From contig JAUVXZ010000005.1 in the NCBI GenBank assembly GCA_030603345.1, forward strand, positions 1 to 39,658: 39,658 nucleotides of DNA, given 5' to 3'. The stretch comes from Pseudomonadota bacterium (GTDB lineage Bacteria; Desulfobacterota; DSM-4660; Desulfatiglandales; B25-G16). The notes beneath the pieces are model-generated. The model was not told where the DNA came from. It did not search any database and saw nothing but the letters and a program-made list of their open reading frames with translations. The translations under genes and the position numbers were made by a program. Positions 31,066-33,795 of this stretch are shown piece by piece. Position 1 is the first letter of the stretch. Every line of letters starts with the position of its first letter.

Positions 31066-31145
31066 CAAAGTCCAGATACCTTGCCGAGACATTTAATATG
31101 GAAAAAATGAATATCTGATAAGAATATCAAAGCCTCAGGCTATGA
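31066..31145. repeat. Direct repeat copy A flanking AbiE-like operon
   Basis: caaagtccagataccttgccgagacatttaatatggaaaaaatgaatatctgataagaatatcaaagcctcaggctatga; ~85-90% identical to 33651-33728, including an identical 24-bp core tgaatatctgataagaatatcaaa. Confidence 0.85.
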
Positions 31146-31504
31146 TCTGAATCCTTGCGTGTCGTATATCCAACTGAATCATGCGATTCCCACCATTAAC
31201 TAATTTCATTTAATGCCGATTGAAACCTGAAATTGCCAGCACCAAGAAAACCATGCTTATGTTCCCTCGCAAATAGTTCAATCGCAAAGTAGCTTTTGGT
31301 TTTCTTCTTACGGAAGATTGTATTTTGAACTAAACAGTTTTGTCACAAGAAGAAGCAGGCCAAAATCAAGTTGACCAAGCAGAAGTATAGGGCCTGATTA
31401 TTTTGAGCATATGAAAAGGATATCAGAACATCTGGGCGGGGTCTCAAATTCCGGATAATAGCAGATATTTCAGAGCGAGATAGGATTCGATTACAGTGCT
31501 AATT

Positions 31505-31557
31505 TGTTCATTAATCTGTATTGTTCATTCATTGTGAACAATCATTTATTGTGAACA
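31505..31557. promoter_or_regulatory. Operator module 1 (four TGTTCA/TGAACA half-sites)
   Basis: TGTTCA 31505, TGTTCA 31522, TGAACA 31535, TGAACA 31552: spacing 17-13-17, full dyad symmetry around 31531. Confidence 0.7.
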
Positions 31558-31612
31558 AAAATTTGTTTATCCTTAGAAATAAAATTATTAGGATAATATA
31601 ATAAGATAGTTA

Positions 31613-31641
31613 TTGACATTTGTTCAGAAAATAATTATGTT
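31613..31641 (+). promoter_or_regulatory. Candidate sigma70-type promoter of AbiE-like operon
   Basis: TTGACA (31613-31618) - 17 nt - TATGTT (31636-31641), embedded in operator module 2. Confidence 0.55.
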
Positions 31642-31673
31642 CACAAAAAATGAACAGGTGCAAATAGCGAACA
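31621..31673. promoter_or_regulatory. Operator module 2 (four half-sites, same spacing)
   Basis: TGTTCA 31621, TGTTCA 31638, TGAACA 31651, CGAACA 31668: spacing 17-13-17, dyad around 31647. Confidence 0.7.
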
Positions 31674-31690: not shown

Positions 31691-32722
31691 ATGAGAACCA
31701 GAACCGCGGAAAACAAAATTCTACGTACAGCCTTGGAAAAGCTCGAAAAGACAACTGAATTAACAGCTGAAGCGTATCCTGAGGTTGATCCCGAGGGCCC
31801 AGATGCAGTGATTCGAATCACTTGGCAAGGTATGGAGTGGCATTTTGCAGCTGAGGTTAAATACACACTCACACCAGCAATGATCGGTGCAGCTGTTCAA
31901 CAACTACGGAGGCATATTGCAAAAGGCATTCTTGTTACAAAATATGTAACCCCGCAGGTAGCTGACATCTTAAAAGAAATGGGTACTCCATTCCTCGACG
32001 CAGCTGGCAACGCATACCTAAACGAGCCCCCTCTATTTGTTTTCATCAAAGGCAACAAGCCTCCTGAGAGAGATACCGAGAAGCCTCCAATCCGTGCTTT
32101 CCGTCCGACGGGACTACAGGTTGTATTTGCCCTTATATGCAATCCAGACCTAGAAAGGGCCCAATACCGGGAAATTGCCCAAGCTGCAGACGTCGCCTTA
32201 GGCACTGTAGGGTGGGTCATGCGGGATTTGAGACAATTGGGAAATCTGGTTGAAATGGGGAAACGGGGTCGGCGGCTAATTCAGAAGGAGAAACTGTTGG
32301 CGCGGTGGGCAACGGCGTATCCAGAACAACTAAGGCCTAAGAAGTTACTAGGGACATTCAAAGCCGCCAATACAGATTGGTGGAAGGAGACTGAGCTTCC
32401 CGGCCCAGAAACGTATTGGGGAGGAGAAATCGCAGCAGCCAAGCTCACACAACACTTGAAGCCGCAGACGGCGACGATCTACACCCGCGAACTCAAAGTG
32501 CTTTTTGAATGGCTAATAAAAAATAGAATAAGACAAGACCCGGATGGAAATATCGAGATCGTGAGGAAGTTTTGGAAATTCGAACCTGATTGGGAATACC
32601 CCAACTTGACTCATCCCGTCCTAATATACGCGGATTTGCTCGCTACTGCTGATGCTAGAAACATTGAGACAGCAAGGATAATCTATGACAAAGAAATTGC
32701 TCGACTTCTCAGGGAAGATTGA
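31691..32722 (+). CDS. Type IV TA system AbiEi-like antitoxin (transcriptional regulator)
   Basis: MRTRTAENKILRTALEKLEKT...; AbiEi_2-type layout with wHTH-like segment (REIAQAADVALGTVGWVMRDLRQLGNL) followed directly by an AbiEii-like gene. ATG 31691 preferred over track TTG 31613. Confidence 0.8.
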   Translation: MRTRTAENKILRTALEKLEKTTELTAEAYPEVDPEGPDAVIRITWQGMEWHFAAEVKYTLTPAMIGAAVQQLRRHIAKGILVTKYVTPQVADILKEMGTPFLDAAGNAYLNEPPLFVFIKGNKPPERDTEKPPIRAFRPTGLQVVFALICNPDLERAQYREIAQAADVALGTVGWVMRDLRQLGNLVEMGKRGRRLIQKEKLLARWATAYPEQLRPKKLLGTFKAANTDWWKETELPGPETYWGGEIAAAKLTQHLKPQTATIYTRELKVLFEWLIKNRIRQDPDGNIEIVRKFWKFEPDWEYPNLTHPVLIYADLLATADARNIETARIIYDKEIARLLRED

Positions 32723-33578
32723 CAGATTCACCATTGAGCTTTTTGAGAACATAGCAAACGTAGCTGAATCTATGAGCGCTCCTTTCTTTGTTGTCGGTGC
32801 AACAGCACGAGACACTATTCTCAAATACGGCTACGGCATCGAGACAATCCGAGCCACTAATGACATAGATCTGGGCGTGAAAGTCTCTGATTGGGATCAG
32901 TATATCAAGCTAAGAGAGGCCCTGGTTGCAACGGCAAGATTCGAACCCACAAGGGAGCCCCAAAGGCTGAAATATCAGGGAAGTGTATTGATTGATATCA
33001 TCCCTTTTGGCGCGATTGCAGATCCGGGTGGATCATTCTCCTGGCCTCCGAATCACGAAGTCGAAATGAACACGCTCGGATTCGACGAATCATATAAACA
33101 TTCTTTGACAGTTAGACTGAAGAGAGAGCCGGATCTGTATGTCAAATTCGCAAGCCAAGCTGGCTTAGCTCTCATGAAACTGATTTCATGGGATGATAGG
33201 CATCCTGAAAGGAGTAAGGATGCTAAGGATTTAGGACTTTTAATGCGCAGTCACATTGATGCGGGAAATGAGGAACGCCTCTTTAAAGAAGAAGTAGACA
33301 TAATCGAGATTCTCCGAGAAAGTGGAAGTTATGACTACACGAGGGCCAGCGCGAGATTGCTTGGCCGGGATATTTCGGCGATTGCAAATCCCGAGACAAG
33401 GGAAAGGCTTCTGAAGATATTGGAAAAAGAGACTGGCGAGAGAGACCGCTACAGGCTTGTGGAGGACATGAGAGACATTTACGCGGCAGCCAGCTCAGAT
33501 TTTGGAGAGAACCTGGCCCTGCTCGAAGAACTCAAGGCCGGCATTCTAGAAGGACCTAGAATTGCTCGGAAGGGTTGA
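32685..33578 (+). CDS. AbiEii/AbiGii-like nucleotidyltransferase toxin
   Basis: FFVVGATARDTIL...TNDIDLGV (DxD) and later VLIDIIPFG acidic residue; overlaps the antitoxin 3' end by 38 nt in a different frame. Confidence 0.82.
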   Translation: MTKKLLDFSGKIDRFTIELFENIANVAESMSAPFFVVGATARDTILKYGYGIETIRATNDIDLGVKVSDWDQYIKLREALVATARFEPTREPQRLKYQGSVLIDIIPFGAIADPGGSFSWPPNHEVEMNTLGFDESYKHSLTVRLKREPDLYVKFASQAGLALMKLISWDDRHPERSKDAKDLGLLMRSHIDAGNEERLFKEEVDIIEILRESGSYDYTRASARLLGRDISAIANPETRERLLKILEKETGERDRYRLVEDMRDIYAAASSDFGENLALLEELKAGILEGPRIARKG

Positions 33579-33650: not shown

Positions 33651-33728
33651 CAAAGTACAGATTTTGCCAAGACATTCAATATAGAAACAGTGAATATCTG
33701 ATAAGAATATCAAAACCTCAAGCTATGA
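33651..33728. repeat. Direct repeat copy B flanking AbiE-like operon
   Basis: caaagtacagattttgccaagacattcaatatagaaacagtgaatatctgataagaatatcaaaacctcaagctatga; see copy A. Confidence 0.85.
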
Positions 33729-33795
33729 GATGATATGGACCCAGATTCTAACTGAAAAACACAGATCCTCAGGGTCTTTATGCATACCATATTTC

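Follow-up and report, generated by a model that had tools for sequence, protein, structure and literature searches.

Four-half-site modules upstream of an AbiEi_2 toxin-antitoxin operon as a very probable antitoxin operator

The window (the whole stretch of DNA analysed, 39,658 nucleotides) contains, upstream of a type IV AbiE toxin-antitoxin operon, two modules of four half-sites with a 17-13-17 spacing that are very probably the operator of the downstream AbiEi_2 antitoxin, since the half-site variants track the recognition helix of the protein and the site is conserved. The modules, their conservation, their covariation with the protein and their overlap with the promoter are the observed part of a wider explanation, in which each module would take up four antitoxin chains, the promoter module would autorepress the operon and the upstream module would be auxiliary; to this explanation as a whole a probability of about 0.87 is given.

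Modules, operon and promoter in the window

All eight half-sites proposed in an initial annotation were located (Table 1), with the 17-13-17 spacing in each module and 116 bp from first half-site to first half-site, the distance that it had given between the module centres. Each module covers 53 bp and the gap between them is 63 bp, while each arm is a direct repeat of the half-site (6+11+6 = 23 bp) and the two arms are 7 bp apart. When scoring self-similarity without a consensus over the whole 39.7 kb window, values of at least 30/36 appeared at these two places only, and no shuffle reached such a score (0/60 for the window, 0/3,000 for the intergenic stretch). The upstream module is perfect (36/36), scores above the promoter module and has no promoter in register. 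A search of the 3.33 Mb assembly with the 24-base pattern, allowing up to 3 mismatches, revealed no copy besides these two modules; a chance origin is ruled out by the shuffles of window and intergenic stretch, this assembly-wide scan and the viral control patterns given below. Another inverted repeat (TTATCCTTAGAA / TTATTAGGATAA) is situated between the modules at 31567–31596; it is largely kept in the relative L001, although module 1 of L001 is not, and was not seen in the other loci compared.

Table 1. Positions of the modules, the predicted promoter and the two genes in the window
Feature	Position	Strand	Details
Upstream (auxiliary) operator module, module 1, putative	31505–31557	.	TGTTCA 31505–31510, TGTTCA 31522–31527, TGAACA 31535–31540, TGAACA 31552–31557
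Promoter operator module, module 2, putative	31621–31673	.	TGTTCA 31621–31626, TGTTCA 31638–31643, TGAACA 31651–31656, CGAACA 31668–31673
Predicted sigma-70 promoter of the operon	31613–31641	+	-35 TTGACA 31613–31618, 17 nt spacer, -10 TATGTT 31636–31641
AbiEi_2 antitoxin/regulator (PF09952, COG4861)	31691–32722	+	profile match, predicted structure
AbiEii-type nucleotidyltransferase toxin (PF08843)	32685–33578	+	38-nt overlap with the 3' end of the antitoxin gene

The AbiE-like toxin-antitoxin operon of the initial annotation was borne out by profile matches of both products and is of type IV. Residues 195–336 of the antitoxin match positions 1–142 of PF09952 (E = 4.9e-42, 144 bits, cut-off 21), a family given together with COG4861 (PMC7251935), and the toxin matches PF08843 (E = 1e-6, 29.3 bits, cut-off 22.5); neither family has a second match in the assembly. 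The gene order is that of a type IV AbiE operon, with the AbiEii (PF08843) gene immediately after the one of the AbiEi family, and the PF09952 match over the C-terminal domain places the antitoxin in the COG4861 branch. Its domains are, in order, an N-terminal PD-(D/E)XK-like domain, a winged helix-turn-helix (wHTH, about residues 139–196) and the C-terminal AbiEi_2 domain. An AF2 monomer model (pLDDT 90) has one wHTH per chain, with residue 170 beginning the recognition helix (residues 170–182). No solved structural homologue was found by sequence, and Foldseek with the model gave nothing below E = 0.001, the weak matches being mostly short DNA-binding regulators.

Residues 1–120 of the antitoxin (31691–32050) resemble a PD-(D/E)XK nuclease fold, with the order H-E-E-E-H-E in the model, and D38 is present in 43, E55 in 36 and K57 in 49 of 62 alignment rows (motif E55-x-K57); the antitoxin may therefore contain a degenerate nuclease domain. 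A pair of 70-nt direct repeats (31081–31150 and 33664–33733, 87% identical) brackets the operon. Four more copies are found elsewhere in the assembly, and the element may be a dispersed repeat that contributed to mobilising the operon.

Half-site 1 of module 2 lies in the spacer of the predicted promoter, half-site 2 overlaps the -10 box and half-sites 3 and 4 are situated over the predicted start site and leader, so that conserved sites overlap the operon promoter (TTGACA-17-TATGTT in module 2), as in an AbiEi autorepressor. Among the homologues the same register, a -35 box starting 8 nt before half-site 1 with a 17-nt spacer, is the commonest (21/53). One subclade (L074–L077, L080, L086, L089, L094, L095) carries between half-sites 1 and 2 the hexamer TTTACA, which could be a candidate -35 box; here the promoter may have shifted with the operator geometry unchanged, which is the expectation if the protein sets the geometry.

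Conservation of the geometry and the upstream module

Homologues were collected by whole-genome searches (in the phylum, two other classes and the class of the window), from one MAG and from plasmids, and the geometry was scored as the mutual likeness of four hexamers at a given spacing, out of 36 and with a threshold of 27/36. In 66 homologue upstream regions 17-13-17 came first of 380 geometries (mean 30.4/36, z = 9.6), reaching the threshold in 54/66 regions compared to 1/198 shuffles and 0/66 in-gene controls. Loss of half-sites and spacing in homologous promoters had been named at the outset as refuting the operator; this comparison was run and both held in those 54 regions. The module spans Bacteroidota, Cyanobacteria, beta- and gammaproteobacteria, including plasmid homologues, and is missing in nearly all distant homologues (bits under 115). 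Four of the 12 homologues below threshold for exact 17-13-17 fit 18-13-17, and two loci with perfect sites, L099 (TGTACG) and L103 (TGTCTA), are both 18-13-18; across homologues the outer spacing is more variable than the inner spacing of 13.

Four AbiEi_2-like relatives of 24–29% identity (L023, L028, L029, L038) have upstream half-sites of the TTTTCA/TGAAAA type, which suggests, from the sequences compared, another operator geometry in another subfamily. In L103, on a Hymenobacter volaticus plasmid, the AbiEi_2 gene is disrupted and annotated in two pieces in different frames, and the outer spacers of its operator are nearly palindromic as well.

An upstream module was found in 18 further loci, making 19 two-module loci with the window, while the majority of relatives have one module and no upstream one. 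In 9 of the 19 (window included) the modules are 116–118 bp apart, and the remaining distances are 70, 74, 77, 94, 99, 100, 100, 107, 132 and 191 bp. The spacers of the 116–118 bp loci are mostly about 40–50% identical, and in the protein tree these loci are polyphyletic and mixed with loci of other distances and with single-module loci. Helical phasing of the distances gave p = 0.008 uncorrected, but a general phasing of the two modules is unsupported once related loci are collapsed (Rayleigh p = 0.38). The two-module loci showed no consistent divergent start, and module 1 as the operator of a divergent gene was rejected.

It is possible, though less likely than not, that module 2 alone does the work of the operator, with module 1 left as a relic or a neutral duplicate and with no significance in the 116-bp phase. 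The single module of most relatives, the wide range of the other distances with their Rayleigh value on collapsed data, and L001 (86% identical), in which module 2 is kept and module 1 reduced to remnants, would all agree with this, but in the window it is module 1 that is perfect and outscores module 2, and a distance of 116–118 bp recurs in loci with diverged spacers that do not form one clade. Seen across these loci, module 1 is more probably an auxiliary operator, at a distance that is frequently but not invariably preserved. Looping between the modules, an idea of the initial annotation, is possible: the recurrence of 116–118 bp in 9/19 loci favours it, but the other loci (70–191 bp) are unphased, and looping is unproven because these distances lack helical phasing.

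Covariation with the recognition helix and copies in phages

When comparing half-sites with the recognition helix, a leucine, isoleucine or valine at residue 170 was found mostly with TGTTCA, Q170 with TGTACA (4 loci), Y170 with TGATCA (L011) and H/N170 with TGTCCA (L055, L056, L061); as exceptions, leucine 170 is also found with TGTACA, ATTTCA and CGTTCA half-sites. The best five of 296 columns for half-site variation (171, 160, 163, 169 and 170) are all in the wHTH, by a statistic that ignores relatedness and, for some columns, is weak (24/300 permutations at R160), and several of the half-site/wHTH changes occur in separate lineages. This covariation is the strongest evidence, short of experiment, for AbiEi_2 reading the half-sites.

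A scan of viral contigs with the exact 24-base operator gave at least 120 matches, of which 80 loci (L111–L190) were retrieved and 64 distinct sites, in about 45 gene contexts, examined. Of the control scans, the one with 16-13-16 modules gave 3 matches and the one with a scrambled half-site none, and other operator variants were matched 3 (TGTACA), 3 (TGTCCA) and 6 (18-13-18) times. When loci with strongly similar ORFs are put together, the 80 loci form about 45 groups, the count of independent phage lineages being approximate as some of the loci are short. An AbiEi_2 gene lies beside the site in 1/80 loci only (L136), and the phage sites were rejected as promoters of phage AbiEi_2 genes for this reason; the 18-13-18 viral loci L241 and L243 also carry an AbiEi_2 gene. 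In 40 viral records of 24–340 kb a whole-record search with up to 3 mismatches found exactly one site each, and an AbiEi_2 profile search of 40 whole viral records detected the protein in 1 and in 39 did not. No shared neighbour gene encoding a binder was found in the phages, the widest ORF family being present in 8/80 loci.

The phage sites are situated within ORFs of at least 100 aa in 10/80 cases, compared to 244/365 random positions, and many of them sit between the tRNA genes of tRNA arrays. In L113 the site (2450–2502) fills the gap between tRNA-Cys (2374–2445) and tRNA-Arg (2505–2577); exact single sites without an AbiEi_2 gene are also seen in, for example, L118 (102–154) and L174 (6203–6255). 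No site was found in 20 kb of a related huge phage, LR745206.1. The spacers had been left free by the 24-base pattern search, and their G+C profile matches that of the bacterial operators (r = 0.82, 0/2000 permutations), with an A/T-only stretch 2–5 nt after each half-site common to both.

With exact copies of the site in phages far from AbiEi_2 genes, a protein of the same specificity is conceivable, and the modules could then belong to a different regulator, of chromosomal or phage origin, controlling the operon in place of AbiEi_2. This is improbable: the site accompanies AbiEi_2 operons in several phyla as well as on plasmids, the half-sites change along with the AbiEi_2 recognition helix, and the assembly has no further copy of the site. 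Least probable is that the repeats act through hairpin formation in RNA or DNA (as an attenuator or a cruciform) in place of protein binding, as the dyad symmetry of the modules and a few near-perfect palindromes among the viral copies (loci L121 and L170) might suggest, but half-sites 1 and 2 are upstream of the predicted start site, the spacers in the operators need not pair, the scrambled half-site with the same symmetry had no viral match, and Rfam, by which an RNA element was rejected, matched nothing in the window stretch and only tRNA in 18 viral loci.

If the sites are read as AbiEi_2 operators, the phage copies, which stand alone between genes in many unrelated phages, would be bound by the AbiEi_2 of the host and could, at somewhat less than even odds, be decoy or co-opted operators that titrate or use the host AbiE antitoxin/repressor, which hints at viruses exploiting or counteracting the regulator. 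Should host AbiEi_2 bind them, phages would repeatedly have gained a DNA element directed against a toxin-antitoxin system of phage defence; a targeted literature search found no report of such counter-defence or host sensing.

Proposed mechanism and known AbiE operators

For binding, stoichiometry, repression and the role of the second module we infer the following. Each TGTTCA half-site would be read by a single winged-helix domain through its recognition helix, with the wing probably over the A/T-only stretch 2–5 nt past the half-site. With one wHTH per chain, the four half-sites would call for four chains (or a pair of dimers), which would fill one 53-bp module in the fixed 17-13-17 geometry, and such multimer binding on each module is plausible from the model. 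The promoter module, when filled, would cover the spacer, the -10 box, the predicted start site and the 5' leader, and because of this coverage RNA polymerase would be excluded and the operon autorepressed. The upstream module would most likely raise the local antitoxin concentration or the cooperativity, perhaps because the two modules, some 11 turns apart, touch or form a loop.

That AbiEi antitoxins autorepress had been brought forward in the initial annotation, but the autorepressors described, those of Streptococcus agalactiae and Rv2827c, are of COG5340 and the window antitoxin is of COG4861. COG5340 and COG4861 antitoxins are said to have no sequence identity in common, and by Pfam the operon is an AbiEi_2 / COG4861-COG4849 gene pair (pairs: Dy 2014; PMC7251935). 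AbiEi of S. agalactiae autorepresses through inverted 23-bp elements over -35, -10 and +1 (Dy 2014, PMC3985639; Hampton 2018). Its operator resembles the window module in belonging to a type IV AbiE operon, in having TGTT at the outer edges, in its 23 bp arms and in its similar total length (49 bp against 53 bp), but its arrangement is 23-3-23 and the outer motif, TGTTGC, occurs once in each arm, whereas each arm in the window is a half-site direct repeat. The COG5340 arrangement, two 23-bp inverted repeats 3 bp apart with one outer motif per arm, is thus not that of the window, with its 17-13-17 four-half-site modules and arms 7 bp apart.

The promoter of Rv2827c in M. tuberculosis is similar in having two inverted-repeat sets upstream of an AbiE-type operon, one of them over the promoter. 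There, four repeats of 23 bp each, separated by 13 bp within a pair and by 4 bp from one pair to the next, are adjacent within 131 bp and show negative cooperativity (Beck 2020, PMC7319586), whereas the window has two separated 53-bp modules, 63 bp apart, in another family and with another half-site. No description of an operator or of DNA binding was found for the COG4861/PF09952 branch in the literature searched. On the sequence comparisons made, the geometry-strict, covarying operator proposed for COG4861 antitoxins is a new form of AbiE autoregulation.

The COG4861 half of the AbiE systems would by this gain a defined operator with a strict geometry, along with a candidate specificity code that relates residue 170 to the middle bases of the half-site. 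With such an operator and candidate code, binding, stoichiometry and cooperativity are now directly testable.
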